In this document: one piece after another, positions 41,714-61,020 of the stretch
Numbering within the stretch: the stretch's first letter is position 1
How the letters are laid out: every line of letters begins with the position of its first letter
Assembly: GCA_910574345.1 (NCBI GenBank)
Contig: CAJSZV010000017.1
Coordinates: forward strand, 1-64,000
DNA length: 64,000 nt
Direction: 5' to 3'
From: Clostridiaceae bacterium
GTDB lineage: Bacteria > Bacillota > Clostridia > Lachnospirales > Lachnospiraceae
The notes under the pieces: model-generated
The model's input: only the letters and a program-made list of their open reading frames with translations
Databases searched by the model: none
What the model was told of the DNA's origin: nothing
Position numbers and translations under genes: made by a program

Positions 41714-42667
41714 TTACTTACAGCACTCGTGGCACGCAACAAAATGATCTGGTGCAATCTCTGTTAAAACCTGAGGCTCTTTACATTTATCCGATGCGTA
41801 GGGGCAGCGGGGAGCGAAACGGCATCCCGGTTCCGGGTTAATAGGGTTGGAAACCTCGCCTTTAAGCACATGGCGCTGCCGGTTTCTCCGGCTCAGATCC
41901 GTGGTGGGAATGGCTGACAGGAGAGCTTTCGTATAGGGATGGGCCTGATGTTCAAATATTTCCTTTTTCGGCGCATATTCCACCACCTGTCCCATATACA
42001 TCACCATAATATCGTTGCTGATATGGCGGACCACACACAGGTCATGGGTGATAAACATATAGGACAGGTTATTTCTCTCCTGCATATCCATCAAAAGGTT
42101 TAAAATCTGAGCCTGTATGGACACATCTAGAGCAGAAACAGGTTCATCGCACACAACAAACTGAGGATCCAGTACCAGTGCGCGGGCCAGGCCCACTCTT
42201 TGACGGCGGCCCCCGTCCATCTCGTGAGGATATATATTATTGTAGCGCTCCGGCAGGCCGCACAGTTCCATTGTCTCACGAACCTTCTGTGCCATTGCCG
42301 TCCTTCCGGTCACGGTTTTGCATACCTTAAGCGGTTCTGCAATCAGCTCGTTTACGGACATTCTGGGATTTAAAGAGGAATAGGGATCCTGAAATACCAT
42401 CTGCATATTGGTCTGAATCTTTCTAAAGTCCCCTTTTTTCATATGCAGTATGCTTTTTCCGCCAAACAGCACGTCTCCGTCCGTAGGTTCGTGAAGCCTC
42501 AGAATGGCCCTGCCCAATGTGGACTTGCCGCAGCCGGACTCTCCCACAACTCCCAGGGTCTCCCCCTTTTTAATCTTCAGGCTAACATCGTCGACTGCAT
42601 GGACAAAACCCAGTTTGTGGGGAAAATACTTTTTTAAATTTTTGGTTTCTACTAAAACGCCGCTCAT
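41714..42667 (-). CDS. Peptide-type ABC importer ATPase, OppF/DppF
   Basis: A 317-residue ATPase. Walker A is [14 protein letters not shown], the Q-loop is [14 protein letters not shown], Walker B is [14 protein letters not shown] and the C-terminal OppF/DppF extension has [16 protein letters not shown] (a Cys-rich cluster site known in Dpp/Opp ATPases). The signature motif is degenerate (MDGGRRQR instead of SGGQRQR). It overlaps OppD by 4 bp and is the last of five transporter genes and of the 15-gene operon. Confidence 0.9.
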
Positions 42668-43647
42668 GTCTCCCCACTCCTTTCATCCGCATACCAGCAC
42701 TTGATAAAGTGGCCCTTGTCCACTTCCTGAAGTTCAGGTTCTGTCTCTTTGCATTTTTCCCGGCATCTGACACACCGGTCTGCAAACTTACACCCCTTGG
42801 GCAGATTGCTGGCATCCGCCATGTAACCCGGAATGGGGGTAAGCCGCTTCGCCTCCGATGTGAGATCGGGAATGCAGTTAAACAAACCGTCTGTGTAAGG
42901 ATGGTTCTTAACCCGGCTAAAGACCTGTTCTATGGAACCCCTCTCGATTACACTTCCCGCATATACCACAGCCACGTTATCGCAGAATTCGGCGACAATG
43001 CCCAAATCATGGGTCACCAAGACCATAGAAGAATTAAAGGACTCTTTCAGCGCTTTCATCAATTCCAGAATCTGAGCCTGTATGGTTACGTCAAGAGCGG
43101 TAGTGGGCTCATCCGCCAAAAGAAGCTTAGGCTCCGACACCAGGGCCATGGCTATGACAATACGCTGTTTCATCCCGCCTGAAAACTGGTGAGGATACTG
43201 ATCTTTTCGTTCCGGCAGAATCCCGACCAATTTCATAATATCGTCCACCCGCGTGTCTCTTTTTTTCGGCGGCATATCAGGATAGTGCAGATCCAGTACC
43301 TCCCGTATCTGTTCTCCCACTGTCATAATCGGATTTAAGCTGGTCATGGGATCCTGAAAAATCATGGAAATCTCAGCCCCTCTAAGCTGGCGCATCTGGT
43401 TCTTTGAGGCCTTCATAATGTCAATATCATTATATTTAATGGAACCGCTGACTACTTCGCCGATATCTTCCGGAAGCAGCCTAAGAGTGCTGAGACACAT
43501 GGTTGTCTTTCCGGCGCCTGTTTCTCCAACCAGACCCAGAGTCTCCCCTTTGTATACATCCAGGGTAAATCCGTTCAGGGCATGTACTACTGCCTCATCC
43601 GTTTTATAATTCACATATAAATTCTTAATTTCCAGCAGTTTTTCCAT
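42664..43647 (-). CDS. Peptide-type ABC importer ATPase, OppD/DppD
   Basis: A 327-residue ATPase paired with OppF. Walker [16 protein letters not shown]-loop [14 protein letters not shown], signature FSGGMKQR, Walker [15 protein letters not shown] and switch [11 protein letters not shown] are all normal, in contrast to the partner's degenerate signature. The Cys-rich tail ([18 protein letters not shown]) typical of DppD is present. It lies 9 bp after the second permease gene. Confidence 0.92.
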
Positions 43648-43656
43648 TCAATCACC

Positions 43657-44505
43657 TCAGTTCTTCTGTTTCGGGTCCAGGGCGTCGCGCAGGCCGTCGC
43701 CTATAAAGTTAAGGCTCAGCACAGCAATCATAATACACAGACCCGGAATAATGCCCAAGAATGGATAGTACATCAGGCTGGCCTGGTTCTCGGAAATAAT
43801 GGTCCCCCATTCAGGAGTCGGAGGAGCAATTCCGATTCCCAGAAAACCAAGGCTTGCAATGGAAAGAATTGTTCCGCCCAAGCCGCTCATCACGCTGATT
43901 ACCAAAGGGCCCAGTACATTGGGAATAATATGTTTCAGCAAAATTCTTGTATTTCCCGTTCCGCAGCATTTTGCCGCCTCAATGAACTCCTGACCCCTGA
44001 GAGTCATAACCGCCGCCCGGACAGTCCTGGCCTGGCGCGGAATCTGGGCCACGCTGAGGGCAATGAGCATCTTCACCAGTCCCTGTCCCAAGGCTGCCAC
44101 AATGGTCATTGACAAAAGGACTCCCGGAACCGACATAAGAATATCACAAAACCGCATAATCACCGTGTCAACTACCCCGCCGAAATATCCGGCGGTTCCG
44201 CCCATAGCCACGCCTACCACAAAGGCAATGCCTATGGTGATGAGGCCGGAAAACAGGGATATCCGGCCGCCATAGATAATTCTGGCGAAAAGATCGCGGC
44301 CAAACTGGTCCGTGCCAAATATATGGCCTCCTCCCGGCGCCTGATAGGCATTGATAATGCTTTGGGTCGTAACCTTACTGTAATCCAGCCAGAGGGGAGC
44401 GGATAAGCATACTGTCATAAGCAAAACCATAACGATCAGCCCCAGCATGGCCAGCTTATTTTTGCGAAACCGGATCCATACTAATTCCATTTGACCTTTT
44501 TTCAT
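43657..44505 (-). CDS. Peptide-type ABC importer permease, OppC/DppC
   Basis: A 282-residue permease with six helices. The GHIFGTDQFGRDLFARIIYGGRISL region (core FGTDQFGRDLFARI) and the EAA loop EFIEAAKCCGTGNTRILLKHI are DppC landmarks; the N-terminal OppC_N segment is present. With OppB it forms the channel. It lies 21 bp after OppB and 9 bp before OppD. Confidence 0.93.
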   Translation of the reverse strand: MKKGQMELVWIRFRKNKLAMLGLIVMVLLMTVCLSAPLWLDYSKVTTQSIINAYQAPGGGHIFGTDQFGRDLFARIIYGGRISLFSGLITIGIAFVVGVAMGGTAGYFGGVVDTVIMRFCDILMSVPGVLLSMTIVAALGQGLVKMLIALSVAQIPRQARTVRAAVMTLRGQEFIEAAKCCGTGNTRILLKHIIPNVLGPLVISVMSGLGGTILSIASLGFLGIGIAPPTPEWGTIISENQASLMYYPFLGIIPGLCIMIAVLSLNFIGDGLRDALDPKQKN

Positions 44506-44526
44506 TTTTTCACATCCTTTCCCATC

Positions 44527-45447
44527 CTACTCAAGCTGGACACGAGGGTCAACTACTGCGTATAAAAGGTCAACCACCAGATTGGTAATGCCCACAATAA
44601 CAGAGACAACAATAATGCATCCGACTACAATGGGGATGTCTTTTGACTTCACCGCCGCGCTTAAAAAAGACCCGATGCCAGGAAACGCATAGACCGTTTC
44701 AGCCACGAGGGAACCGCCTACAATGTTGGAGAATCCCACGCCGATCTGTGTAATTACCTGGAGAAGAGAGTTTCGCAGTGCATGCTTTACAATAACTACG
44801 CTTTCTTTATTCCCCTTGGCCCTGGCAGTCCGCACATAGTCGGAACGAATGACGTCCAAAAGCCATGTCCTTGTCATACGGCTGTTCCCTGCAAGCATGC
44901 CGCCGGTCAGGGACATAATGGGCAGGATAAATGCCTTCCAGGAACCGGCTCCTGAAGCAGGGAGCCATCCTAGTTTAAGGGAAAAGAACAGCTGATACAT
45001 CATTCCCAGCCAGAATGTAGGCGCTGCCGACAAAAGCAGGGCAAAAAAGGTAATGATGTAATCCGGCATATGGTTATGGCGAACCGCCGCATAAACACCG
45101 GCAGGAATTCCTATAACTACCGCCACAATGGTTGAAAGCACGGCTAATGTCAAGGTATAGGGCAGACGATGGGAAAACTCGTTAAGCACGTCAAATCCCT
45201 GATACCAGGATTTGCCGAAATCCCCTCTCACGGCTTTTAACATGTACTGCACATACTGAATAAGAACCGGCTGGTCCAGTCCAAGTTCCGCGCGTTTCGC
45301 GGCAATATCCGCTTCTGTCGCCTCAACCCCCAGCATCATAACTGCCGGATCGCCGGGGGAGACTGACAACACAAGAAACACCAGAAACGTAATACCTATA
45401 ATTACCGGAATAAGAAGCAAGAGGCGTTTTAACGTATATTTGAGCAT
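44527..45447 (-). CDS. Peptide-type ABC importer permease, OppB/DppB
   Basis: A 306-residue permease: six helices, N-terminal LKRLLLLIPVIIGITFLVF, the G-D-P segment SPGDPAVMMLG, and the EAA-like loop YVRTARAKGNKESVVIVKHAL. FPGIGSFLSAAVKSKDIPIV near the C-terminus is a standard family landmark. GGAGG precedes the ATG. Opp/Dpp channels carry peptides but also nickel, opines and oligosaccharides, so the neighbouring enzymes are better clues to cargo than the transporter itself. Confidence 0.93.
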   Translation of the reverse strand: MLKYTLKRLLLLIPVIIGITFLVFLVLSVSPGDPAVMMLGVEATEADIAAKRAELGLDQPVLIQYVQYMLKAVRGDFGKSWYQGFDVLNEFSHRLPYTLTLAVLSTIVAVVIGIPAGVYAAVRHNHMPDYIITFFALLLSAAPTFWLGMMYQLFFSLKLGWLPASGAGSWKAFILPIMSLTGGMLAGNSRMTRTWLLDVIRSDYVRTARAKGNKESVVIVKHALRNSLLQVITQIGVGFSNIVGGSLVAETVYAFPGIGSFLSAAVKSKDIPIVVGCIIVVSVIVGITNLVVDLLYAVVDPRVQLE

Positions 45448-45480
45448 ATTTTCCTCCTTTGGGAATCAGGAAGCGGGCTC

Positions 45481-47145
45481 TTATTTCCAGCTCCAGTCTT
45501 TTACTCTCCAGGTACCGTTCGTATTGATCTTTACCCCTTCTAAGTTCTTGTTAAATGCCACGCAGCTGTTCTTGCAGTAAACGGGCACGTCATATGCCTG
45601 TTCGTTGATAATGTCCGCCAGTTTAGCCATACAGTCCTTACGGTCCTGTCCTGCGGCAACATTGGCGTCAAAACAGATATTCTGTAAATTCTCCCAATCA
45701 GGGGCAGGCCAGATGGGGCCTTCCGAGCCCTGTACGCACCAGAAACTGTTCAATGTGGAGACATCACAGAGACTTCCCGTGGTGCTGTTGAGCATGAGAT
45801 CGTAGTTGCCGCTTTTCTGGTTGGCAACATTGGTGCCTGTATCCGTGGCTATGATCTCAATATTAATGCCTACATTCAAAAGCTGTCCCTGGATAATCTG
45901 GCAGGCTCTCTCCTCCACTGTGCCGGAAACACAGATCAGCTGCAAAGGAGCGCCGTTGTAATTGGAGTTTGCTAGGTATTCTTTGGCCTTCTCCACGTCG
46001 CCGGCAGGCGGGATAGTCACAAAGGATCCCTCGTCAGGCGCGCCGTTAAAGAAATAAGGAGCATCCATATCAATGGTAATGCCTTCGCCGCTGAGAGCCC
46101 CGATTACGATCTCTTCTTTATTGATTCCATACTGTATGGCCTTGCGCAGATTATAGTCTGTGGCCAGTTCCGGATTGGTATCCCGGCAGTTGTACAGAAG
46201 AAGGGATCTGGATGTGGACTGGGATGTAATATATGTAGCGTTGTCATTTTCCGTCAGCTGTTGGCAGGAAGCAATATCCGCCAGATTGATAAAGTCAATA
46301 TCACCGGATTTCAGGGAAATAAAGGATGTGGTAACATTGGCTACGGGACGGATGCGGACGGTCTTGATTGCAGGTTCTCCCTCAAAGTAATCAGGGAATG
46401 CCTTTAATACAATCTCCTGTCCGCTGACGCGGGACTCGAACATATAAGGGCCGGTTCCGATAGGTTTCTCCATGTATCCTTCTGATCCCACTTCTTCATA
46501 ATACTTTTTACAGATAATCGAACCGACTCTTGAAGTCGTCTCCGAGGGGAAACCGTCAAAGGGGCTGGTCAGAACAAATTTCACCGTATAGTCGTCGACA
46601 ACAACAGCCTCTTTAAAATTAATCAACAGATTGGTAGTAAGGTTGGGGTTCTTCTCTGCACAGAGATTATAGGTAAAAGCCACATCCTCAGCCGTCATGT
46701 GCTCCCCGTTATGGAAATAAACATCGTCTCTTAAGTGGAACGTGTATTCCAGTCCGTCGTCTGACTTTTCATAATCCGTAGCCAGCCATGGCACACAGTT
46801 TCCTTCCTCATCCATCCAGAGCAGATAACTGTAGATATTATAGATAACCGGTGAATCCTTAGCCATGGCAGAACTGTAGGTTGAGTCCTGGCAGATAAAT
46901 ACCGTAGGCTCGCTGGAGGTTATGATAATCACCTCGTCTTTTCCCGATGGGGATGCCTCTTCCTTTGAAGTGGCTGCATCCTCTGTCTTCTTATCTGCTG
47001 CCGTGGTTGCTGCTGCCTGGGTACTCCCGGCTGTTCCCCCGCCTGTGCTGCCGCCGCCGTTCTGGCTGCATGCGGCAAGAGCTGACACTGCCAACAGAGC
47101 TGCCAGTGCAAGGGCGCTTACTTTGTTCCATCTGCTTTTCTTCAT
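45481..47145 (-). CDS. Peptide-type ABC importer substrate-binding lipoprotein (SBP_bac_5)
   Basis: A 554-residue extracellular binding protein. The signal peptide ends at lipobox SALAAC (Cys26), then a Gly/Thr/Ala/Lys/Glu-rich tether to about 70. Family 5 landmarks include CVPWLATDYEKSDDGLEYTF, FHLRDDVYFHNGEHMTAEDVAF and LRKAIQYGINKEEIV. The ligand pocket of this family can take peptides, glycosides or metal chelates, so no substrate is assigned. It follows the PH-domain gene by 49 bp and is the first transporter gene in the operon. Confidence 0.9.
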   Translation of the reverse strand: MKKSRWNKVSALALAALLAVSALAACSQNGGGSTGGGTAGSTQAAATTAADKKTEDAATSKEEASPSGKDEVIIITSSEPTVFICQDSTYSSAMAKDSPVIYNIYSYLLWMDEEGNCVPWLATDYEKSDDGLEYTFHLRDDVYFHNGEHMTAEDVAFTYNLCAEKNPNLTTNLLINFKEAVVVDDYTVKFVLTSPFDGFPSETTSRVGSIICKKYYEEVGSEGYMEKPIGTGPYMFESRVSGQEIVLKAFPDYFEGEPAIKTVRIRPVANVTTSFISLKSGDIDFINLADIASCQQLTENDNATYITSQSTSRSLLLYNCRDTNPELATDYNLRKAIQYGINKEEIVIGALSGEGITIDMDAPYFFNGAPDEGSFVTIPPAGDVEKAKEYLANSNYNGAPLQLICVSGTVEERACQIIQGQLLNVGINIEIIATDTGTNVANQKSGNYDLMLNSTTGSLCDVSTLNSFWCVQGSEGPIWPAPDWENLQNICFDANVAAGQDRKDCMAKLADIINEQAYDVPVYCKNSCVAFNKNLEGVKINTNGTWRVKDWSWK

Positions 47146-47194
47146 GTTTGTTCCTCCTTATCATTTTTATATTTTGTATTTATCACTATCTTTT

Positions 47195-47689
47195 TCACGT
47201 CTTGGCCGCCAATTCATCCCTGCTTTCACGGATGGCATCCAGAACATACTGCCCGTTGTAAAGCATGGGAAGAATCCGTGTCCGGTTATGAATTTTTAAC
47301 AGAACCTGCCCGTCATACCGGTTCTTCCACATCACCGATGTCCTGCACAATCTCGCCCTGGATACGTCTTTGATGGGATAGGAAATGACTTTTTTCTTCT
47401 TTCCGAGAAAATTACATCTGCGGTACAAAATGCGCTCATTGGTAACGCATACAAATTCCTTTTGGCACAAGACCAGGGCCCACAATGCTCCATAAGAAAA
47501 CATGCATCCCGCTATAAATTCCACCCAGAATCCGGCGGAGGCAAATCCTCTTATCACCGGTTCCGCCACGCATGGAATCCCCAGAATCAGCAGTGCGGCG
47601 CCAGTCAATGCCTGATACTTCCGGCCGGAATGTTCTACAATTCTCTCTCCCTGCCCCAATTCCTTTTCAAGTCCAAGCTGTCTCTCCAT
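47195..47689 (-). CDS. Membrane-anchored bacterial PH-domain protein
   Basis: A protein of about 164 residues. ATG 47689 has GGAGGTGTT upstream and lies inside the end of the DUF2877 gene (23-bp overlap); the longer frame from 47728 is rejected. Two helices (about 30-50 and 55-80) lead into a PH-like (DUF304/YdbT) domain: FVCVTNERILYRRC, then KKKVISYPIKDVSRARL. The domain is usually of unknown function. Its coupling to the operon by overlap is clear, but its role there is not. Confidence 0.7.
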   Translation of the reverse strand: MERQLGLEKELGQGERIVEHSGRKYQALTGAALLILGIPCVAEPVIRGFASAGFWVEFIAGCMFSYGALWALVLCQKEFVCVTNERILYRRCNFLGKKKKVISYPIKDVSRARLCRTSVMWKNRYDGQVLLKIHNRTRILPMLYNGQYVLDAIRESRDELAAKT

Positions 47690-48578
47690 CCAACACCTCC
47701 AAAAGTCGAAAGGCTTCTGCAATTCCAAGCAAAGTATCCGCCCCTGTAGTTCCCCCGATTTGAGCCAGGCCTTCTAAGTCTTCCAGCTTTATGGCTTTTA
47801 TCAGAGGCTGGCTTAAAAACCCCTGCTCCATGGCCCACAATTCACTGTAGCCATAGATTGTCGTCCTCTGCGCCAGCCTTGTAAGCCCTCCTGCGGCCTC
47901 TTCGTACACCTGGCTGTGCCTGCCTTTATACCTCATCTTCATGGTTCCCCAGAACCCGGTGAGAAAATCATCGCCTGAGGGCGTCAGGCCTGTACCAAAG
48001 CCGACCAGGCCTTCCTGTGCCTCCTCCATAAGCGAAAGGTCTGCCCTGAGCACTCCCTGCCTGAGAAGTTTCACGCTCTGTGCGAACCGGTAAAAATATC
48101 CAAAATCCCCTGGTTCTTCTCCCATGCTCCATCCCAGCGTTCCAAGAACCAGGGAGGATCCTGTTTCTCTTCTGCACCGATTCAGCTCATGTTTTAACTG
48201 TCTCAGGCCTTGGGCATAGGCCTCTGTGCCAAGGGCAGGCAGCTTTTTTATAGTTAAATCCTGCCACTGCCTGACCTTGTTTGTATCACAGCCTATACGG
48301 TTTCCAAACAAGAGCCTGTCACCCTGCCAGGTCACTTCCTCGCCGAGAACCTGCCGCCACTCATCGGGCCTGTATTCTGAAAGGACACCGCCTAGGGGAA
48401 CGGCAATATGATCTTTTTCAAGCATTACTGCCAGCCCGCTACAGGCAACTGCCAGGGCGGATGAGAAAACGCCGCACACCTTTCCGCCTTGTCTCAGCAT
48501 CTGCTCTGCATAAGGTGAAATCCAAAGCAGTTCCTTTAAGTCCCCTCTGTCTTTCTTACTCAATGACAATGATGTCAT
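47667..48578 (-). CDS. DUF2877 protein, AllH/YlbF-like subunit
   Basis: A 303-residue protein of the DUF2877 family. The two family signatures are clear: GLVGFGTGLTPSGDDFLTG in the middle and IGGTTGADTLLGI at the C-terminus. In E. coli the homologue YlbF (AllH) acts with FdrA (AllF) and YlbE (AllG) as oxamic transcarbamylase, which phosphorolyses oxalurate to oxamate and carbamoyl phosphate. The other two subunits are encoded in the same operon (54274-55848 and 52875-54281), separated from this gene by two hydrolases. Its start overlaps the preceding hydrolase by 23 bp. The exact reaction here is uncertain because the expected carbamate kinase is missing. Confidence 0.85.
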   Translation of the reverse strand: MTSLSLSKKDRGDLKELLWISPYAEQMLRQGGKVCGVFSSALAVACSGLAVMLEKDHIAVPLGGVLSEYRPDEWRQVLGEEVTWQGDRLLFGNRIGCDTNKVRQWQDLTIKKLPALGTEAYAQGLRQLKHELNRCRRETGSSLVLGTLGWSMGEEPGDFGYFYRFAQSVKLLRQGVLRADLSLMEEAQEGLVGFGTGLTPSGDDFLTGFWGTMKMRYKGRHSQVYEEAAGGLTRLAQRTTIYGYSELWAMEQGFLSQPLIKAIKLEDLEGLAQIGGTTGADTLLGIAEAFRLLEVLDGETAWT

Positions 48579-52862: not shown

Positions 52863-52874
52863 GGTCACGCTCCT

Positions 52875-54281
52875 TTACAGATATCCGTGTTTTCTATAGA
52901 ACTCCCTCATCATATCAACATAGGGTTTTATGGGGAACCGGCCTGCGCCTGCACCGATCTGGCCCCCGTTCTTTGATATAATCCCGCCGTGGCAGATGGG
53001 GGTAATCTGGGTAGTCAGCACTTTCCGGGCATCAATTCCGAGTGGCGGTCCCTGGAAGTTTAACAGAGGAATGGGATAATTGGTATTGGTGCCAAAGGAA
53101 ATCTGGTTCATCTCCAAAGTCTGGTTGATGGCAGCCTGATAATCCCCGTCTCTTAAGCGGAGAACGGCAGGCCCTGCTGCCGCTGCAAAAGCGCCCAGGC
53201 CCACGACTTCGCAGACCGTGCTGTCGCCCATATGCAGGGAAGCGTCCTCATCACCCCACTCTGACGAAAAATACTGTCCGTAATATCTGGGGGCTTCGGT
53301 GGTAAACCATTTATCTCCCGTATCCCCAAACTTAATTCCGTTTCTCACGCCGTTGGAACAGCACATGGTGACCAATGTACAGTATTCCAGGCCCTGAATG
53401 GATTTTAATACGCTCATGGCGGAAGCCATACCCAGGGGATGGAACCAGCGCTCCGTGGCAACCAGCATATCCACACAGGTCTTCATGGTCTCTCTGTCCA
53501 GATCGGATGCCATAAACTTAGGCATCAATTCACTGACCAATATCAGGCTTGCCGCCGTCTGGCGGGTATGAATCTCATCATTCATCTGGAGCGCACGGGC
53601 TATAATGCTGGTGACATTGATGGACCCCTGAGTCTTTAACACCTTGTTCACTGCCGGCGCAAACACATTCTCAATGACCTGAAGGTTCTTCTCAACCTTC
53701 TCATTGTACAGCCCCCACAGGGAAAGCCCGTCGCGTCCCTCAAAAGGAGCACAGTAACCGCGGCGTCCTGTTTTCTTATCCTCACAGATATTCACAATCA
53801 TGGATGCCGTTATAATACCTGCGCCGGCACCGATGCAGTCGAAATCATATGCGGATTTCACTTCGATCTGGCCTGACTCCAATTTCTTTATGGCCTCTTC
53901 CTTTGTCTTGGCCAGACCTTCATGGAGAGCCCCTCCTATGGTGCCGATTCTCTGCAGGCTTCCCATATCCTGCCATGTAATGGGCGGGCCGGAATGGAGG
54001 ATATAATTGGGCTTCATTCCCGGAACCACCTTGATGGCCCTTTCCATTCCGATCCAATGGGACTCACTTGTCAAAAAGATGTCTATGGCTTTCCTGTTCG
54101 CCCTGTCAATTTTTTCATTTATCTCCGGATTCTCAAGAAGCGGTGCAAGCTCCTTATCCACCGGCGGTTTCCAATTGACGGAAACACACTGGCCTCCCTG
54201 GCTTGTGACAGCGTCCCCAAAAGCGGGAAGCCCTACATTGACGGCGGCAATTTTCGAATCAAACAAGGTATGATTACTCAC
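52875..54281 (-). CDS. DUF1116 protein, AllG/YlbE-like subunit
   Basis: A 468-residue DUF1116 protein. I choose GTG 54281, with GGAG 8 bp upstream, over a TTG at 54302; the gene then overlaps FdrA by 8 bp. Landmarks are the N-terminal INVGLPAFGDAV-like stretch (AAVNVGLPAFGDAV), NGVRNGIKFGDTGDKWFTT and FGTNTNYPIPLLNFQGPPLGIDAR (core NYPIPLLNFQGPPLGID). In E. coli YlbE (AllG) is one of three subunits of oxamic transcarbamylase with FdrA and YlbF. It sits directly after FdrA, as in allantoin clusters. Confidence 0.88.
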   Translation of the reverse strand: MSNHTLFDSKIAAVNVGLPAFGDAVTSQGGQCVSVNWKPPVDKELAPLLENPEINEKIDRANRKAIDIFLTSESHWIGMERAIKVVPGMKPNYILHSGPPITWQDMGSLQRIGTIGGALHEGLAKTKEEAIKKLESGQIEVKSAYDFDCIGAGAGIITASMIVNICEDKKTGRRGYCAPFEGRDGLSLWGLYNEKVEKNLQVIENVFAPAVNKVLKTQGSINVTSIIARALQMNDEIHTRQTAASLILVSELMPKFMASDLDRETMKTCVDMLVATERWFHPLGMASAMSVLKSIQGLEYCTLVTMCCSNGVRNGIKFGDTGDKWFTTEAPRYYGQYFSSEWGDEDASLHMGDSTVCEVVGLGAFAAAAGPAVLRLRDGDYQAAINQTLEMNQISFGTNTNYPIPLLNFQGPPLGIDARKVLTTQITPICHGGIISKNGGQIGAGAGRFPIKPYVDMMREFYRKHGYL

Positions 54282-55848
54282 TTTCTTTCTCCTCTCCGGC
54301 AATCAGTCCTGCAAGGACCGCTGCCTTTGCTGTGCTTTCCATCACGTTCACTCCCAGAGCTTCCAGACGCTGTTTCTGGGAAGACAGCTTTTGCGGGTCA
54401 AGCTGGGTTCCTGTAATGGCCGCTACCATACTCACATAACGGTTTTCTTCTTCTGCCTGTCTGCGGATGTTTCTGATGGTATCTTCGATGCATCCCACAG
54501 GATCTTCATGAGCCCCGTAACCTAACAGCATATCGAACAAAATCACTGCCGTCTCAGGGTCTCTGCCCTCCTTCATAAGCCGGTCATTGAGTATGGACGG
54601 ATCCATTACGGGATGGGGCTTTCCTTTGGTGAACTCCTCGTCTCCCATATCCACAAGACTGTTCCCTGTGCTGATGTGGGGACTGTCAAGGAGCACGGCG
54701 CCGCCGAAGCTTACATTGGCATGCAAGTCTTTCACGAATTTTTTCAAAATCAGAATGGTTTCTTCATTATGGGTTCCTCCGCAGAACAGCCCGCGTACAT
54801 ACTTCTGGGACTCTCCAAGCTTTTGTCTCTCTTCCCTTGCCAAAGGAATGAGCTGCTCTTTCACGTCCCGAAGATATGGCCGTTCATCCGGCTTTTCACC
54901 TTTTGCCAGGGCCACAGCCATGTCAGCCGCCTGTTCCAAACTTTCCGGCGCATATGCCCCTGCCCCGCGTACCTCTTCCGCCTTTCCGCCAAGGAGATCG
55001 ATGACCACAGGTTTCTTGCATGTCGCCACACGTCTGTAGATCTTTGCAGCCGTGTCAGGATAGGGAGGCTTTGACACCAGTACGATTACGTCTGTGTCAG
55101 GATCATTGTCCAGATAATCGATTCCCTGAAGCATGGTTAAGCCTCCTACTTCTTTGGACAGATCCCTTCCTCCTGTGCCTATGGCCTGGGAGATTCCAAA
55201 ATCTTTTTGGGTGATCAGCGCGGCAATCTCATGAATGCCGCTTCCTGAGGCTCCCACAATACCGATACGTCCCTTTGACACAACGCTCATAAGTCCAAGA
55301 GACACGCCTCCGATTACGCTGTTGCCGCATCCCGGCCCCATGACAAAGAGCCCTTTTTTGGCTGCCAGCTCCTTTAGCTTCACTTCCGCCTCCAATTCCA
55401 CATTATCGCTGAAAATAAAAGCGTTTAGTCCGCAGTCCAGGGCTTTCCCTGCTTCTTCTGCTGCAAACTCTCCCGAAACGGAAATAATTGCCAGATTGGT
55501 CTCTTCATGGTCTGCTACAGCCATGGGAATTGTGGTATATCTGACTTCCTGGACCGCTTCCGCTCCCCCGCCTTTTTTGCTGCTCATCTCGTCAATGGCG
55601 CGGCTTACCTCTTCGGCCGCCTCTTCCGATGTGACTTCCAGGGAAATAATCAGATCACCCGGCCCCGCCTCCTGGGCCTCTTTCGTCAGGCGTCCCACGT
55701 CTTCCAGAACGGTCTTATTCAGTTCCGTCCCCATCACAACCACTGCCTGGTTCACTCCTTTCAGGCTCTTTACTTCCTTCGTAGCCCTCATAAGGAATAT
55801 GGAATCCATATAGGTATTGGGGCGTATAATGGTTTTTATCATAATCAC
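54274..55848 (-). CDS. fdrA: FdrA (AllF-like), acyl-CoA-ligase-like subunit
   Basis: A 524-residue protein of the FdrA family, built like succinyl-CoA synthetase: an N-terminal CoA-binding-like fold with GRIGIVGASGSGIHEIAALI and a second ligase-like half with SPHISTGNSLVDMGDEEFT. VMGPGCGNSVIGGVSLG and IVLVSKPPYPDTAAKI are family landmarks. FdrA is the core of the three-part oxamic transcarbamylase of allantoin breakdown, a phosphorolytic enzyme that yields carbamoyl phosphate. Its start overlaps the stop of an acyl kinase (ATGA), suggesting that the acyl phosphate it makes is used by that kinase. Confidence 0.9.
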   Translation of the reverse strand: MIMIKTIIRPNTYMDSIFLMRATKEVKSLKGVNQAVVVMGTELNKTVLEDVGRLTKEAQEAGPGDLIISLEVTSEEAAEEVSRAIDEMSSKKGGGAEAVQEVRYTTIPMAVADHEETNLAIISVSGEFAAEEAGKALDCGLNAFIFSDNVELEAEVKLKELAAKKGLFVMGPGCGNSVIGGVSLGLMSVVSKGRIGIVGASGSGIHEIAALITQKDFGISQAIGTGGRDLSKEVGGLTMLQGIDYLDNDPDTDVIVLVSKPPYPDTAAKIYRRVATCKKPVVIDLLGGKAEEVRGAGAYAPESLEQAADMAVALAKGEKPDERPYLRDVKEQLIPLAREERQKLGESQKYVRGLFCGGTHNEETILILKKFVKDLHANVSFGGAVLLDSPHISTGNSLVDMGDEEFTKGKPHPVMDPSILNDRLMKEGRDPETAVILFDMLLGYGAHEDPVGCIEDTIRNIRRQAEEENRYVSMVAAITGTQLDPQKLSSQKQRLEALGVNVMESTAKAAVLAGLIAGEEKESE

Positions 55849-57047
55849 TTCCTCCTTTCCAGATACCGGCAGACTCTTCTGGCCACTTCGATCTCTTCAT
55901 TGGTAGGAATCACCAGTATTTTTACTGCTGAATCCTGGGCGGAGATTTCTCTCTCTTTCTCCCCTGACAGATTCTTTTGTCTGTCCAGGCATACTCCCAG
56001 ATGCTTTAGTCTCTCACAGACTCTCTCCCGGATCATAACCGAATTCTCTCCGATCCCGCCTGTAAACACCAAATACTCCAATCCTCCCATCTCCGCCCAA
56101 AAACTCCCGATGGTCCGCACAATGTTTGTCACAAATACGGAGATGGCCAGTTCCGCCCTTTCATTGCCTTCCTTTGCAGCCTGTTCCAAATCGCGCAGGT
56201 CATTGCTGACTCCGGAAATCCCATACAGGCCGCCTCTTTTCACCAGCCCCTCGTTAATCTCCTCAAGGGACATTCCCGCGCTTAACAGGAAAGGAACCAA
56301 ACTGGTATCCGTGTCGCCTGCCCGGTTGGCATGAAGGATTCCCGTCTGCAGGGACATGCCAAAGCTGGTATCCACACTTTTTCCGTTCTCCACGGCACAC
56401 AGGGAACTGCTCCCTCCCAGATGGCAGGACACCATGCGGTATCCTTCCGGTTCCATCTCATCTATCCTGCCGGCTATGTATCCATGGGAGGCACCATGAT
56501 ATCCCATCCTCTGGATTCCGTATGTCTCATACCATTCATAAGGTAGGCCGTAAATCCTTCGCTCCATGGGAATTGTCTGATGGAATCCTGTCTCAAAGGA
56601 ACCGATGAAACGGGCTGAGGGAAGGAGCTTTTGAAACTGTTCGATGGCCTGCATATATGGCCCGTTATGGGAACCTGCGATCCCCATATAAAACTTCATT
56701 CCTTCCATTACCTCATCTGTCAGCTCATGGACCCCATAATAATTTTTTGCCAAAACCGTCTTAAAACCAACGACTTCAATCTCTTCCACATGGCGGATTG
56801 CCCCTGTTTCCTCTCCTGTCAGATCATTAAGAAAGCGCTGAATTCCGTTTAGATAGTCAGGTACCAACTGCTGTTCTTCATAGATTGTCAGGTTTCTGTC
56901 GGGATTTCCATAATAGTAAATGGCTTCCTCTGTCCCTACCCGTTCAATCTTTCCCTCTGCCAGAAGATTCTTTTCCGGCATAAGATACAGTTTAAACTTA
57001 AGGGAGGTGCTTCCCACATTGCACACCAGTACTTTTGTTGTCTTCAC
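55845..57047 (-). CDS. Acetate/butyrate-kinase-family acyl kinase with altered substrate site
   Basis: A 400-residue ASKHA kinase of the AckA family, which converts acyl phosphate plus ADP to acid plus ATP. The phosphate loop VLVCNVGSTSLKFKLY, MGYHGASHGYI, GKSVDTSFG, HANRAGDTD and TGGIGENS are all recognisable, so the fold and nucleotide site are intact. Two positions differ from AckA: the HRVVHGG motif that carries substrate Arg91 reads FKTVLAK, and the D-T-A-F-H motif with catalytic Asp148 reads SFETGFH, so Asp becomes Glu. HLGNGAS is HLGGSSS. These changes suggest an acyl phosphate other than acetyl phosphate. It lies 7 bp after the ThDP enzyme and overlaps fdrA by 4 bp, in the place where allantoin clusters have carbamate kinase. 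Confidence 0.85.
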   Translation of the reverse strand: MKTTKVLVCNVGSTSLKFKLYLMPEKNLLAEGKIERVGTEEAIYYYGNPDRNLTIYEEQQLVPDYLNGIQRFLNDLTGEETGAIRHVEEIEVVGFKTVLAKNYYGVHELTDEVMEGMKFYMGIAGSHNGPYMQAIEQFQKLLPSARFIGSFETGFHQTIPMERRIYGLPYEWYETYGIQRMGYHGASHGYIAGRIDEMEPEGYRMVSCHLGGSSSLCAVENGKSVDTSFGMSLQTGILHANRAGDTDTSLVPFLLSAGMSLEEINEGLVKRGGLYGISGVSNDLRDLEQAAKEGNERAELAISVFVTNIVRTIGSFWAEMGGLEYLVFTGGIGENSVMIRERVCERLKHLGVCLDRQKNLSGEKEREISAQDSAVKILVIPTNEEIEVARRVCRYLERRK

Positions 57048-57054
57048 GTCTTTT

Positions 57055-58752
57055 TCATCCCTCCTGCGGGGCCCATGATTTTATGGCGTTTATTGACCCG
57101 CCCATATCACAGGGCTGTCTCTTTACGCAAATGGCATCAATCAGATAACATCTTCCCGATGCTTCAGAACAGGCCTTTGCCCTCACCAGGGCAGCCTTTA
57201 ACTCTTTTGGGCTGAATACTCGCTCCGCCACGCACCCATAGGCTTCTCCCAGCTTCACATAATCAATGGTTCCGTCCTGGTTATAAGGCATATCCACCGC
57301 ATACTCGAAACCATAACCGCTCTGATTCTGGCGAATCAGGCCAAGGTAGGCATTATTCACAACAATGATAATAATCGGCTTCTTAAAAGCTGTGGCTACG
57401 GCAATCTCCTCTCCCATGAAAGTCAGGCCGAAATCTCCTACAATAGTCACGCTGCTGCACTCAGGATGGGCTACCTTTGCGCCGAATGCTGCCGGAACTT
57501 CATAACCCAGGGTTCCCGCACCGCCGGAAGGCAGATATTTTCCGGCTTTTCTGATTTTCTGAAGCTGCCCGCTCCAGATCTGGGTAATTCCGCACCCAAC
57601 CGTAAAATATGTCTCATCGTCAAAGGCTTCATTGACCTCCTGGAATACACGGTGGGGCATCATAGGGCTGGAATCATAATCGGTCTTTCTCGCCATGGTC
57701 TTCTGCAGTGAGGGAATGGCCTGGGCCCTTTCTGCATTCACCGGCTTTATTCCCTGGGCCTTCACCTGGCCGATTAATGCCCGGACCGCCAGTCCGGCAT
57801 CTGACACAATCCCCAAATCCGGCTGGAATACAAGGCCGATCTGGCTCTCATCAATATTGATATGTATAAATTTGCGCCCCTCACAGTATGTCTTTAAATC
57901 GCCGGTATGGCGGTCTGAAAAACGATTGCCGATACCGATTACCAGATCAGAATCCAGAAAAACCTTATTCCCTATGGGCTGCCCTACCTGAATGCCCACA
58001 TGGCCTGCGTTTAAAGGATGCTCTTCCGGGATACCGCCTTTAGCCTGATATGTGGTTACCACTGGTATCTGCAGCAACTCTGCCAGGCGGACAACATCCT
58101 CACAGCACTCACTGATCACACATCCGCCACCCATGATAATCACAGGATCCTTGCTGTCCTTGATCATCTGCACTGCCTCTTTGATCTTGTTCTGGTCCGG
58201 CACGGCTTCTTCAATTTTGGCGGGCTCATAGCTATCAATATCAAATTCAAATTCTGATTTCTGAACATCCAGAGGCAGTTCAATCAGAACCGGTCCCGGA
58301 CGCCCTTCCCTCATGAGGTAAAAAGCTTCTTTCATAATTCCCGGAAGGTCTTCCGCCTTCATGACGCTCCATGCTTTCTTTGTCACGGTCTTCACAATAT
58401 CCGGCATATCCACACACTGGAAGGGCTCCTGCTTTAACTGGTCACTGTTTGCCTGTCCCACTACGCAGAGAACGGGCATGGAATCAATAAAAGCCGTATA
58501 CAGGCCTGTGACAAAATTGGTTGCTCCCGGACCTGCCGAGCAGATAGCCAGTGCAATCTCCCTGCCGGCCCTCTGGCAGCCGTCGGCGGCATGGACACAA
58601 GCCTCCTCATGCCTCATGGTAAAATGTTCTATAGGCGCATGTTCCAGATATTTATATACCGGATTAATGGCCGCCCCCGGAATACCAAAAGCCTTGCGAA
58701 TCCCTTCCTTACACATGATCTCCACAATAGCCTGCGCGACTGTCATTTTCAT
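57055..58752 (-). CDS. ThDP-dependent carboligase resembling glyoxylate carboligase
   Basis: A 565-residue three-domain ThDP enzyme. Many stretches follow glyoxylate carboligase (Gcl, tartronate-semialdehyde synthase): FGIPGAAINPVYKYL, LMREGRPGPVLIELPLDVQ, IGNRFSDRHTGDLKTYCEG and VNNAYLGLIRQNQ. The ThDP motif runs from VGDFGLTFMG to VVNNAY. However, the place where Gcl has its unusual Val51 (RHVEGA) reads RHEEA here, so the ordinary ThDP-activating Glu (E49) is present. The reaction may therefore be a related carboligation or decarboxylation instead. No FAD-binding lock can be judged by eye. With the dehydrogenase and isomerase beside it, a glyoxylate-to-glycerate route is the simplest reading. 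Confidence 0.82.
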   Translation of the reverse strand: MKMTVAQAIVEIMCKEGIRKAFGIPGAAINPVYKYLEHAPIEHFTMRHEEACVHAADGCQRAGREIALAICSAGPGATNFVTGLYTAFIDSMPVLCVVGQANSDQLKQEPFQCVDMPDIVKTVTKKAWSVMKAEDLPGIMKEAFYLMREGRPGPVLIELPLDVQKSEFEFDIDSYEPAKIEEAVPDQNKIKEAVQMIKDSKDPVIIMGGGCVISECCEDVVRLAELLQIPVVTTYQAKGGIPEEHPLNAGHVGIQVGQPIGNKVFLDSDLVIGIGNRFSDRHTGDLKTYCEGRKFIHINIDESQIGLVFQPDLGIVSDAGLAVRALIGQVKAQGIKPVNAERAQAIPSLQKTMARKTDYDSSPMMPHRVFQEVNEAFDDETYFTVGCGITQIWSGQLQKIRKAGKYLPSGGAGTLGYEVPAAFGAKVAHPECSSVTIVGDFGLTFMGEEIAVATAFKKPIIIIVVNNAYLGLIRQNQSGYGFEYAVDMPYNQDGTIDYVKLGEAYGCVAERVFSPKELKAALVRAKACSEASGRCYLIDAICVKRQPCDMGGSINAIKSWAPQEG

Positions 58753-58789
58753 TCTTTTTCTCCTTTACACGTACGTTTTTACTTCTATG

Positions 58790-59755
58790 TTACCTGTTCA
58801 CAACATGCACCGGGTTTCCTGCCAGGTAACCCTTTACATTCTCTACGGTGCAGTCCATGATCCGCTGCCTGCTCTCCTTTGGCGCCCAGGAAATATGGGG
58901 GGTAATGATACAGTTTTGGGCTTTCAGGAGCGGGTTATCCCCCTTAATGGGTTCCGTAGACACCACATCCAAACCGGCTGCATACACCTTTCCCGAATTC
59001 AGGGCGTCAGCCAGGTCCTGCTCCGCCACCAGGGCCCCGCGGGAATTGTTGAGAAGGATGACTCCGTCTTTCATCTTTCCTATGGTGTCCTTGTTTATCA
59101 TCCCTTCCGTCTCAGGAAAGAGAGGACAGTGAAGGGAGATCACATCCGCTTGGGCAAAGAGGGTATCCAAAGTCACATACTGCCCAATGGCTTTCCCTTC
59201 TTCACTGACCGTCTGATCATATGCCAGGATATTCATGCCCATGGCCTTTGCAATCCTGCCAACCTGCTGCCCGATGCGGCCGAATCCGATAATCCCCATG
59301 GTCTTTCCCCACAATTCAATAAGGGGATAATCCCAATAACACCAGTCCTTGCAGTTCTCCCACCGCCCTTCATAGACAGTTCTGCTGTGGTGGGCCGGAT
59401 GATGGCAGATCTCTAAGAGCATGGCAATGGCAAACTGCGCCACTGAGGCAGTTCCATAAGCGGGAACATTGGATACGGCGATTCCCTTCTCTTTTGCATA
59501 GAGATAATCCACTACATTGTATCCCGTAGCCAGCACCGCAATATATTTCATGTCCCTGCAGGCGTCTATTACCTTTTTCGTTATGGGGGTCTTGTTGGTA
59601 ATGACGATCTCCGCCTTCCCAATCCTCTCTATGGCTTCCTTCTCATCTGTCAGGCTGGTTCTGTCATACACGGTCACTTCCCCTAGGCTTTCCAACTCTG
59701 CCCAGCTTAAATCTCCCGGATTTTCTGTATAACCGTCTAAAACTACAATTTTCAT
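58790..59755 (-). CDS. D-2-hydroxyacid dehydrogenase, glycerate dehydrogenase-like
   Basis: A 321-residue NAD(P)H-dependent dehydrogenase. ATG 59755 gives the family N-terminus MKIVVLDGYTENPGDLSW. The Rossmann motif is MGIIGFGRIGQQVGR; catalytic Arg, Glu and His lie in LLNNSRGALV, VVSTEP and ITPHISWAP. The sequence is of the glycerate dehydrogenase/hydroxypyruvate reductase class, so reduction of hydroxypyruvate (or tartronate semialdehyde) to D-glycerate is likely. It stands between the TIM-barrel isomerase and the Gcl-like enzyme in the order expected for that route. Confidence 0.88.
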   Translation of the reverse strand: MKIVVLDGYTENPGDLSWAELESLGEVTVYDRTSLTDEKEAIERIGKAEIVITNKTPITKKVIDACRDMKYIAVLATGYNVVDYLYAKEKGIAVSNVPAYGTASVAQFAIAMLLEICHHPAHHSRTVYEGRWENCKDWCYWDYPLIELWGKTMGIIGFGRIGQQVGRIAKAMGMNILAYDQTVSEEGKAIGQYVTLDTLFAQADVISLHCPLFPETEGMINKDTIGKMKDGVILLNNSRGALVAEQDLADALNSGKVYAAGLDVVSTEPIKGDNPLLKAQNCIITPHISWAPKESRQRIMDCTVENVKGYLAGNPVHVVNR

Positions 59756-59778
59756 AATCATGCCCTTTCTCTGAATGC

Positions 59779-60669
59779 TTAATCTTCCAACAGCGCCCAT
59801 GCCCGGTTAAGGACACGTTTTGTGTTGGCCAAGACAATCTCTTCCTCTTCTCCCGGACGCAGAGTAACTTCCATAGACAGCACAAAGGGATGCTCTGGGT
59901 CAAAAAAGCCCTCTTCCTTCAGCACTCTCAGATAATCAAGGAGTTCCTTTGTATCGTTGGCACTGTTTGGATATCCGAAACGCGGATGCAGATCGCCGTA
60001 TCCGTCACATCCCTTTTTCACCACTGCATTTCCAAAGTGAAAATGAGTAATGTAAGGCCTCAGTGTCCTGATCACAAAACGGCTTGTCTCATAGGTAGTG
60101 GGAAAATGGCTCAAATCCACTAAAAGTCCGAAATTGCTGTGGCTGCTTCTCATATCCGCCGCAAATCTTGCTGCGTACGGCGCCGGTCCTATGAGCGCGG
60201 CTTTGTCCATGTCAAAATCAAAGACCTCCAGTTCCACCGTCATATTCTTCCCGGCTGCATAGTCACAGACTGCCCTTGTTGTTTTCAGCAACTGTATGTA
60301 TGCCTGTTCCTTTGTCTCTTCCTGCCACTTCCCCGCCAAAAATGCAATTCCCAGAGCTCCCAGATACTCAGCCTCATCCACAGCCTGTATCAATGTATCC
60401 TCCGCTTTTTTCCGCTGCTTTTCATCAAGATCATTGGGATTTAGCTTCGGTCCCAGCAGGCGGGGCTGTGCGCCGTAACATACCTTTAGGTGACTTTGTT
60501 CCAAAAGCTTTTTTGCCTCTTCATTTCTGCCACCATATCCTTTCACCTCAATGGCGTCAAAAAAATCGTCCTTGCAAATCTCTTTCAGGGACTCTATAGG
60601 GTCCCTTTGGGGATAACTCATCCACTGAATCGTCCCTACACGGAAATACTTGTGAATTGATTCTCTCAT
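59779..60669 (-). CDS. TIM-barrel sugar isomerase/epimerase, hydroxypyruvate-isomerase-like
   Basis: A 296-residue AP-endonuclease-2-fold protein. ATG 60669 has AAGGAG 7 bp upstream; a longer frame from 60741 would run through the operator and is rejected. Metal-site residues expected in this fold are visible: Glu in VELEVFDFD, Asp/His in LLVDLSHFP, His in THFHFGNAV, and Glu in LSMEVTLRP. Members include hydroxypyruvate isomerase and tagatose/inosose epimerases. Position before a Gcl-like and a glycerate-dehydrogenase-like gene favours a Hyi-like role, but it is not a close Hyi by eye. It is the first gene of the operon. Confidence 0.8.
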   Translation of the reverse strand: MRESIHKYFRVGTIQWMSYPQRDPIESLKEICKDDFFDAIEVKGYGGRNEEAKKLLEQSHLKVCYGAQPRLLGPKLNPNDLDEKQRKKAEDTLIQAVDEAEYLGALGIAFLAGKWQEETKEQAYIQLLKTTRAVCDYAAGKNMTVELEVFDFDMDKAALIGPAPYAARFAADMRSSHSNFGLLVDLSHFPTTYETSRFVIRTLRPYITHFHFGNAVVKKGCDGYGDLHPRFGYPNSANDTKELLDYLRVLKEEGFFDPEHPFVLSMEVTLRPGEEEEIVLANTKRVLNRAWALLED

Positions 60670-60720
60670 CGCTGTTCTCCTTACTTCTGGCATGATGCGA
60701 TATTTCCTATAGTGATATTT

Positions 60721-60782
60721 GATTTCATTTATTGAAATCATATTTCATTTTTAATATTATCATATTGTGCAGTTTTTTGCAA
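60721..60782 (-). promoter_or_regulatory. Operon promoter with IclR-type operator
   Basis: Minus strand TTGCAA (60782-60777), 17-bp spacer, TAATAT (60759-60754), with TG one base before the -10 box (extended -10). Transcription would start near 60747. A palindrome GATTTCA-N5-TGAAATC (60721-60739) lies just after the start, similar to the TTTCA/TGAAA operators bound by IclR-family proteins. Confidence 0.65.
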
Positions 60783-61020
60783 TACTAAAGTTAAAATTTA
60801 TTTTTTATAGATATATTTACTTTTTTTGGATTATATGATAGTATTATTATTGAAATATAATTTTGTATATCAAAATTACTTTTTTTGTTATCCGAATATT
60901 TTGTCTGGAAAGAAATTCCAGCCCATGGTATACTGTTATTGTATAAAATGCAGGATCAATACATATAAAACGCAAAATTCGAAAGCTATGCCACAAAAGA
61001 CCAGGAGAGAATATCCAACT

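Follow-up and report, generated by a model that had tools for sequence, protein, structure and literature searches.

Within a window of 64,000 nucleotides (positions 1 to 64,000 of contig CAJSZV010000017.1, assembly GCA_910574345.1, Lachnospiraceae), a leftward operon of 15 genes lies beside a gene for an IclR-family regulator and encodes together the FdrA, DUF1116 (AllG) and DUF2877 (AllH) subunits of the oxamic transcarbamylase type, along with an AckA-like kinase, two GHL6-type proteins, an ABC importer and enzymes of a three-carbon module (Table 1). The operon is most likely not an allantoin operon; it is most likely a variant of a wide sugar-acid system that has FdrA-AllG-AllH and a separate acyl kinase at its core and is undescribed in the literature searched. 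The reading preferred here, to which a probability of about 0.6 is given, is that this IclR-linked operon serves the catabolism of a sugar-derived acid, or of its glycoside, by way of phosphorolysis.

The phylogeny of AllG, which has one match in the 5.6 Mb host genome, provides the basis for this placement. An AllG alignment was used to scan genome contigs of 84,980 species, yielding 85 relatives of which 80 were retained; these 80 loci and 20 further loci from relatives of the same family, order and class, plus E. coli and the window, made up the tree set. Two of the 100 loci, in which no AllG of at least 380 amino acids (aa) was called, were omitted from the first tree and from the counts by side given below. 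For the final tree, midpoint-rooted for drawing only, 14 of the 100 rows were removed by hand, being near-copies and a few merely close rows (e.g. L099, L106). In the tree the window AllG did not group with that of E. coli and lay across a branch with ultrafast bootstrap/SH-aLRT values of 100/98 (SH-aLRT 98 in the first tree). The window side of this branch comprises the window and loci of the AckA/sugar-acid type, while the other side holds E. coli, the carbamate-kinase loci, a CoA-transferase/cyclase group and Nitrososphaerota. FdrA-AllG pairs of the sugar-acid side come from records of Bacillota, Lentisphaerota, Verrucomicrobiota and Planctomycetota, and from one labelled Deltaproteobacteria. 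The record of Oligosphaera ethanolica DSM 24202 (L078), for instance, has FdrA-AllG-AckA-AllH.

The genes neighbouring AllG differ between the two sides. They were called with an open reading frame (ORF) script and blastp against 39 reference proteins for the earlier loci or 55 for the later ones; the loci span 3.1-21.5 kb, 'no match' means none within that stretch, and at such lengths neighbours with weak matches are undercounted, most of all AllH (22 of 80 loci). According to Pfam and NCBIfam, the reference neighbours are an IlvD/Edd dehydratase, KDPG aldolase, PfkB kinase, SDR, metallo-beta-lactamase (MBL) or Amidohydro_2 proteins, FAD_binding_2 with Succ_DH_flav_C, and aldose epimerase; the UxaA-type reference protein matches galactarate dehydratase below the cut-off (229.8 vs 730.85). 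Among the 80 scan loci, FAD_binding_2 was called in 54, IlvD in 49, SDR in 47, an AckA-like kinase in 46, an MBL-fold protein in 42 and a UxaA-type protein in 3, and blastp to the reference proteins found carbamate kinase in none. An AckA-like gene is present in 47 of 69 loci on the window side of the AllG branch, no more than 300 bp from AllG in 33 of them, and in 0 of 29 on the other side. The corresponding counts are 52/69 and 0/29 for a dehydratase of the IlvD or UxaA type, 54/69 and 0/29 for FAD_binding_2, 46/69 and 0/29 for MBL or Amidohydro_2, and 45/69 and 2/29 for SDR, whereas carbamate kinase occurs in 0/69 and 4/29. Fisher values for these counts are overstated, because related genomes are not independent and AllG was the bait; better evidence comes from the tree and from the occurrence in several phyla. 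At two loci (L099, L101) the set is small, consisting of IclR, a TRAP permease (DctM), FdrA, AllG, FAD_binding_2 and AckA, which suggests that the flavoprotein acts directly ahead of the FdrA step on an imported acid.

FdrA-AllG pairs were also observed in other settings. Those of Nitrososphaerota and archaeal loci (L102, L103, L105, L112-L115, L117, L119) form a well-supported group of their own, in which neither AckA nor carbamate kinase was called. In a third setting (L174, L176-L181, L183, L186, L188, L189) the pair adjoins a CoA-transferase III and/or a PF04199 cyclase; some of these loci also have a C-N hydrolase, and L179 also has carbamate kinase.

Residues of the two larger subunits were compared for FdrA of 450-640 aa and AllG of 380-540 aa, rows outside these lengths being omitted; the canonical set therefore consists of E. 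coli and L185 alone, with 22 and 24 further outside rows, respectively. AllG W196, Q248 and R285 are found in 70/70 branch rows and 0/26 outside rows, AllG G160, G192, H288, H438 and G439 are nearly branch-specific too, and FdrA S188 is found in 58/58 branch rows and 0/24 outside rows. Invariant on both sides are AllG D242, H245, E365 and D424 and FdrA D229, H412, D439 and D484. Because the invariant residues are kept and the branch-specific positions differ, the pattern may be read as the same basic chemistry applied to another substrate. The window FdrA, just above its NCBIfam cut-off, also carries a CoA_binding domain (Pfam).

The AckA-like kinase forms a separate subfamily. Only cluster kinases of 380-430 aa were aligned, giving 48 rows (43 without five contigs that were fetched twice). 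The subfamily shares with acetate kinase (AckA) the family and the residues N7, H123, H180, R241 and E384; all 48 and the window differ from it by R91K, D148E, N211G and G212S, so that HLGNG becomes HLGGS, by F or Y at H90 and mostly by L122A (A in 40). The host's housekeeping AckA and the five PDB alignments shown have H/R/D/N/G at positions 90/91/148/211/212. Arg91, Asp148 and Asn211, which we take to be active-site residues of acetate kinase (M. thermophila numbering), are thus K, E and G in the window and in 48/48 cluster kinases. In acetate kinase L122 lies in the pocket for the methyl of the acyl group, and Ala or Ser at this position would suit a bulkier acyl group. Of 30 kinase matches taken as loci from 391 genomes of the class, 5, including the window, belong to this K/E type and 25 to the housekeeping type, one of the latter having Q at 211. 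At L252-L254 the kinase has as neighbours an ABC importer that by eye looks like the LIV type and proteins of the UxaA-family and 2-hydroxyacid-dehydrogenase-like kinds, a setting that is possibly another acyl-phosphate route.

From these features a mechanism can be proposed. The ABC importer would take up the compound, and the two GHL6 proteins would process it, either by cleavage of a glycoside or by another reaction of the same fold. At FdrA-AllG-AllH, phosphate rather than water would attack R-CO-CHX-CO-COO-, yielding an acyl phosphate, R-CO-OPO3, and a 2-oxo acid; this step is suggested by gene context, by the branch-specific residues and by the isosterism of oxalurate and oxamate with a 2,4-dioxo acid and pyruvate. 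Oxalurate is H2N-CO-NH-CO-COO-; exchange of NH2 for R and of NH for CH2 gives a 2,4-dioxo acid, and oxamate becomes pyruvate. It is because of this relation that phosphorolysis of oxidised sugar acids is proposed. The AckA-like kinase would then use the acyl phosphate to form ATP. In most related clusters the dehydratase would remove the C3 hydroxyl, X would be H and the 2-oxo acid would be pyruvate. In the GHL6 subtype, the window included, no dehydratase was found and X would be OH; with the C3 hydroxyl kept, phosphorolysis would give hydroxypyruvate, the enediol partner of tartronate semialdehyde, which fits the C3 hydroxyacid module of the window and the GHL6 loci. Hydroxypyruvate would be converted to D-glycerate via the TIM-barrel isomerase and the D-2-hydroxyacid dehydrogenase, and the Gcl-like enzyme would act on the same C3/C2 pool.

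Phosphorolytic chemistry of this kind is that of E. coli, where, according to PMC11326118, AllFGH interconverts oxalurate plus phosphate with oxamate plus carbamoyl phosphate, from which carbamate kinase makes ATP. The window resembles the E. coli AllFGH and AllK system in its three homologous subunits, its kinase partner and the invariant residues; it differs in lying across the 100/98 branch, in having an AckA-family kinase instead of carbamate kinase and in the altered AllG and FdrA positions, and its related clusters have sugar-acid neighbours. In the non-phosphorylating L-fucose/L-rhamnose route described in PMC11199699, oxidation of a 2-keto-3-deoxy acid yields a 2,4-diketo-3-deoxy acid, from which hydrolysis releases pyruvate and L-lactate (KDFDH with FucG/LRA6). 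As in that diketo-hydrolase route, the related clusters hold an SDR, a lactonase-type protein, a dehydratase and a further oxidoreductase; in contrast to it, cleavage is proposed to occur by phosphate and not by water, and a FAD_binding_2 flavoprotein is common in the clusters. No hydrolase of the FAH or FucG/LRA6 type was seen among the 20 neighbours scanned, which involved no search aimed at that family. Since the neighbours are those expected of the non-phosphorylating sugar-acid route, the simplest account would be that the clusters cleave the 2,4-diketo intermediate with phosphate and that the K/E-type kinase recovers ATP. A parallel, although not the same reaction, is the hydrolytic retro-Claisen cleavage in phloroglucinol degradation, as given in PMC10470551. 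The most specific form of the proposal, held tentatively at somewhat less than even odds, is that FdrA-AllG-AllH of this branch may be a retro-Claisen phosphorolase, cleaving a C-C bond of 2,4-dioxo sugar acids, that a dedicated acyl kinase would let anaerobes gain extra ATP from the product and that the window variant, keeping the C3 hydroxyl, would lead to hydroxypyruvate. Two other reactions, 2,3-diketogulonate cleavage and a ring opening of the IolD kind, were considered and then dropped.

The original prediction had proposed an undescribed route of import, opening by hydrolysis, phosphorolysis to an acyl phosphate and flow to glycerate. Gene context favours retaining this outline, with a step by glycoside-hydrolase-like proteins and the AckA-like kinase as user of the acyl phosphate. 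A ureide-type function is not supported, since AllG branches apart from E. coli, carbamate kinase is missing from all 69 branch loci and the linkage is to sugar-acid genes.

Table 1. Features of the operon and its regulatory region (positions in the window; E-values and scores from the searches named)
Feature	Coordinates	Strand	Evidence
ABC ATPase with oligo_HPY	41714..42667	-	ABC_tran 6.5e-30
ABC ATPase with oligo_HPY	42664..43647	-	ABC_tran 5.2e-30
Permease, DppC/OppC type	43657..44505	-	BPD_transp_1 2.7e-28, OppC_N 5.3e-12
Permease, DppB/OppB type	44527..45447	-	BPD_transp_1 2.1e-34
Family-5 solute-binding protein	45481..47145	-	SBP_bac_5 5.8e-76; 72.5% in G448
Small protein	47195..47728	-	below all curated Pfam cut-offs; bPH_3 15 vs 23 bits; 38% homolog at same place in G448
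AllH-like subunit (DUF2877, PF11392)	47667..48578	-	AllH 1.8e-12; 42% in G448
GHL6/GH42M-type protein b	48556..50718	-	GHL6 6.9e-16; 64% to a; G448 pieces 76% (83 aa), 71% (529 aa)
GHL6/GH42M-type protein a	50691..52868	-	GHL6 2.9e-14, Glyco_hydro_42M 7.9e-07; PDB 6tvk (GH151) 1e-11; 63% in G448
AllG-like subunit (DUF1116, PF06545)	52875..54302	-	AllG 1.4e-58; sugar-acid side of 100/98 branch
FdrA/AllF-like subunit	54274..55848	-	Ligase_CoA 2.2e-28; NF004760 439.6 vs cut-off 433; PDB 3dmy 2.1e-70
AckA-like acyl kinase, separate subfamily (K91/E148 type)	55845..57047	-	Acetate_kinase 3.3e-97
Gcl-like thiamine pyrophosphate (TPP) enzyme	57055..58752	-	NF008431 622.9 vs cut-off 791; TIGR01504 514 vs 711.2; Gcl = best family/PDB match
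D-2-hydroxyacid dehydrogenase	58790..59800	-	2-Hacid_dh_C 5.5e-58; below listed NCBIfam cut-offs
TIM-barrel protein, sugar isomerase/epimerase type	59779..60741	-	AP_endonuc_2 1.2e-14
Palindrome GATTTCA-N5-TGAAATC	60721..60739		possible IclR operator
IclR-family regulator, divergent	60826..61812	+	IclR_C 4.9e-40, HTH_IclR 5.7e-12 (Pfam)

The ORF positions agree with the layout described earlier: 41714-60741 contains 15 ORFs, all leftward, with short overlaps and gaps of at most 49 bp, and the 15-gene operon with its recurring parts is real. The labels given to FdrA, AllG/DUF1116, AllH/DUF2877, the AckA-family kinase, the Gcl-like protein as a TPP enzyme, the D-2-hydroxyacid dehydrogenase, the two GHL6 proteins, the family-5 binding protein, the two permeases and the two ABC ATPases all lie above Pfam cut-offs, and an IclR gene does stand beside the operon. 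Genes of allantoin and ureidoglycolate metabolism, said to be absent, were not found among the operon genes in Pfam and NCBIfam scans. The statement that carbamate kinase is absent holds for the operon but not for the genome, in which another contig scores 376.2 bits against a cut-off of 358.25. Elsewhere in the window, 30962-33887 and 36211-38489 contain genes of a TRAP transporter (DctM, DctP) and a pair of the Fer4_20/Pyr_redox plus DHODB type that is similar to NfnAB or a glutamate synthase small-subunit pair.

The best NCBIfam matches of the regulator are KdgR (169.1 vs cut-off 275), BhcR (154.9) and AllR (95.8), all below cut-off, and its true start is probably internal to the ORF, in which the helix-turn-helix domain begins at residue 78. 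The palindrome is a possible candidate for the IclR operator: with a pattern derived from the site itself, allowing up to 2 mismatches yields 1 match in the window, against a mean of 0.50 in shuffles, and with up to 1 mismatch there is a single place in the 5.6 Mb host genome. One strong promoter-operator had been placed at 60721-60782, with no terminator inside the operon. The palindrome of the former is there, but the strength of the promoter and the lack of a terminator are unproven, because the scan gave counts not clearly above chance (29 promoter-like sites vs 23.1 +/- 5.2, 20 terminator-like sites vs 19.2 +/- 4.0).

Parts of the operon recur in other genomes. One contig of the genome G448 (L043), starting inside FdrA, carries FdrA-AllG-GHL6a-GHL6b in this order, and a second carries GHL6b-AllH-177aa-SBP5; identities to the window are 77% for FdrA (170 aa, at the contig end), 83% for AllG and 63% for GHL6a. 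On a third contig a Gcl ortholog (67-68%) adjoins an IclR ortholog (48%), the two genes being convergent. The window palindrome recurs there at 12590-12608 with 2 mismatches, in a form that is itself perfectly palindromic, the Gcl ORF running from 12601, and a weaker copy is found upstream of the IclR ORF at a distance of 133 bp; the number expected across all 18 kb when up to 3 mismatches are allowed is 0.49. The copy at the start of Gcl and the adjacent IclR ortholog suggest that Gcl belongs to the same regulon. An IclR-like palindrome at G448:C46:1730-1748 (L259), in front of a stretch that looks promoter-like and leader-like by eye, is probably due to chance, with no recognised gene of the system nearby.

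GHL6, AllG and FdrA occur together in five genomes, namely the window's, G448, G373, G537 and G595. Wherever the stretch extends to AckA, the gene is present, namely in the window, G373 and G537 (55-56% identity to the window's in the latter two); the G595 contig ends inside FdrA. Four of the five, all but G448 as read, have a D-2-hydroxyacid dehydrogenase, detected by blastp in G595. When the question was put whether the hydrolases and the importer are unlinked to the fdrA block elsewhere, linkage was found, in the gene orders of G448 and in the distant GHL6 of G373, G537 and G595.

Names in the three-carbon module were revised. The first gene of the operon had been called Hyi; it has no Hyi-family match, NCBIfam giving only IolO (24.3 vs 300 bits), and no PDB sequence matched at 0.01. 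The model of the protein (pLDDT 86.3) has D-psicose/tagatose 3-epimerases as top fold matches (E 2.9e-13), E172, D209, H235 and E291 are invariant in 15/15 rows, and the alignment suggests a translation start at about 60669. In 11 of the 14 loci read, two of which belong to the host itself, this gene and the dehydrogenase gene lie next to each other, and the pair is once found beside a glycerate kinase over its cut-off (506.7 vs 168.45). Glyoxylate carboligase (Gcl) is not known to have the catalytic glutamate, the place of which is taken by valine. The window enzyme is like Gcl in that Gcl is its best family and PDB match, but it is below both NCBIfam Gcl equivalog cut-offs and has a catalytic-type Glu where the solved Gcls 7ct6 and 8beo have Val. 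A canonical sequence of Gcl, Hyi and reductase starting from glyoxylate was discarded as the sole reading on account of the cut-offs, the Glu and the neighbour genes. In G373 a glycerate 2-kinase-like gene scores 247.6 bits, below the cut-off of 550, and in G537 a tartronate semialdehyde reductase exceeds its cut-off (459.2 vs 397); it lies some 3.4 kb beyond AckA, with a transporter and an AraC-type gene in between. The idea that a C2 part is sent to glycerate may therefore stand as regards the flow towards glycerate, as context suggests, but the part may be C3, as these G373 and G537 genes occur along with a 2-hydroxyacid dehydrogenase and with no Gcl-like call in the stretches read.

The GHL6 proteins are weakly alike in sequence to the GH151 alpha-L-fucosidase 6TVK, over three stretches. 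The nucleophile of GH151 is D154 in the review PMC10154630; it was taken as chain position 183, on our inference that the chain numbering runs 29 ahead of that in the paper, and on that basis the Asp at the end of beta-4 is matched by Asn158, with Asn in 9/9 full GHL6 rows. A plain GH151 fucosidase was rejected because of this Asn, which likewise makes the former description as hydrolases doubtful; GHL6 may be other than a plain glycosidase. The AlphaFold model of GHL6a (pLDDT 42) was not used. At two loci (L206 in G586, L207 in G663) the neighbours of GHL6 are PdxA and a 2-hydroxyacid-dehydrogenase-like gene, joined in L207 by a DUF1537-type kinase, a setting that links GHL6 to four-carbon acid sugars. 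The small protein downstream had been described as a PH-domain protein, a label that the bPH_3 score does not sustain. By family the importer belongs to the peptide type. The PDB sequences matching the binding protein best include AgaA, AppA and the agrocinopine protein AccA, and the same importer type is present in the sugar-acid cluster L070; the cargo of the importer therefore need not be peptides.

Several observations weigh against the sugar-acid reading. A dehydratase and FAD_binding_2 occur in 52/69 and 54/69 branch loci, but neither was found by Pfam in the window operon, where the source of the 1,3-dicarbonyl is unaccounted for. Of the 69 branch loci, 22 lack AckA, 13 of these being loci of at least 15 kb. 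A KDG kinase or KDPG aldolase is found in 41 of the 69, so that ordinary aldol cleavage may carry some of the flux. Distant AllC/AllD-like genes (29-30% identity) are found in 3/69 loci on the window side as well as in 4/29 on the other. Three of the five K/E-type kinases (in G116, G082 and G142; L252-L254) lie away from FdrA and AllG, and the kinase is therefore not tied to these alone. The GHL6 proteins lack the nucleophile Asp of GH151, and in G373, G537 and G595 they are only 22-24% identical to those of the window, as the dehydrogenases are only 29-33%; the G373 dehydrogenase is about 7 kb from AckA, and neither the Gcl-like nor the TIM gene was called in the stretches read from these three genomes. 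Their AllG has W196, Q248, R285, H438 and G439 but not G192 and H288, FdrA position S203 is V in G373 and T in G537, and the G373 AllG (L175) is a long branch of unsure placement in the final tree.

Three other explanations were weighed against the sugar-acid reading. An allantoin or ureide route, in which the trio is an ordinary oxamic transcarbamylase (OXTCase) and the AckA-like kinase takes the place of carbamate kinase, would agree with the same three subunits, with the AllG and FdrA residues invariant on both sides, with the kinase adjoining fdrA-ylbE-ylbF in the E. coli operon and with the few distant AllC/AllD-like neighbours on the branch. It was rejected, as very improbable, on the AllG branch, the neighbour counts (no carbamate kinase and frequent sugar-acid-type dehydratases) and the branch-specific residues; moreover, the carbamate kinase of the host is on the other contig (G000:C23:38614-39534, L213), beside what appears by eye to be a ygeW/ygeX/ygeY/ssnA-like purine/ureide cluster. 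The CoA_binding and Ligase_CoA domains of FdrA are what one would expect if it acted like its succinyl-CoA synthetase relatives, converting acyl-CoA and phosphate to an acyl phosphate for the kinase in replacement of a phosphotransacylase, and a gene of the aldehyde dehydrogenase family is present in 3/80 loci, 2 of them with AckA. This acyl-CoA route is nonetheless unlikely: it leaves AllG and AllH unexplained, none of the 20 reference neighbours scanned was recognised as a CoA-acylating enzyme, and CoA is not listed for the E. coli OXTCase assay in the portion of PMC11326118 available.

The operon might also be a loose assembly, with GHL6 and the importer, the glycerate module and the FdrA/AckA module serving different substrates under one promoter. 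The TIM-dehydrogenase pair does occur without FdrA or AllG in the 14 loci read, Gcl is on a separate contig in G448, and in G586 and G663 GHL6 stands beside dehydrogenase, PdxA and (G663) DUF1537-type genes where FdrA was not called. Against this are the two G448 gene orders, the company of GHL6 with AllG and FdrA in G373, G537 and G595, and the palindrome copy at the G448 Gcl, and the loose assembly is considered to have only a small chance of being correct. The preferred reading remains phosphorolytic breakdown of an acid derived from sugar, or of its glycoside.

Nothing joining FdrA, DUF1116 and DUF2877 with an acetate-kinase-like gene or with dioxo-acid phosphorolysis was found in open-licence PubMed Central text, nor any paper treating FdrA, acetate kinase and dihydroxy-acid dehydratase together. 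If the preferred reading is true, a family known from one reaction of allantoin breakdown would gain a second role, in the carbohydrate metabolism of anaerobic bacteria. The type of reaction would be a phosphate-driven cleavage of a 1,3-dicarbonyl, with an ATP-saving step that the known hydrolytic route does not recover. Present annotation would be masking this pathway under the names acyl-CoA synthetase FdrA, DUF1116 and acetate kinase, and predictions of allantoin use and of acetate kinase would be corrected for genomes with such clusters.

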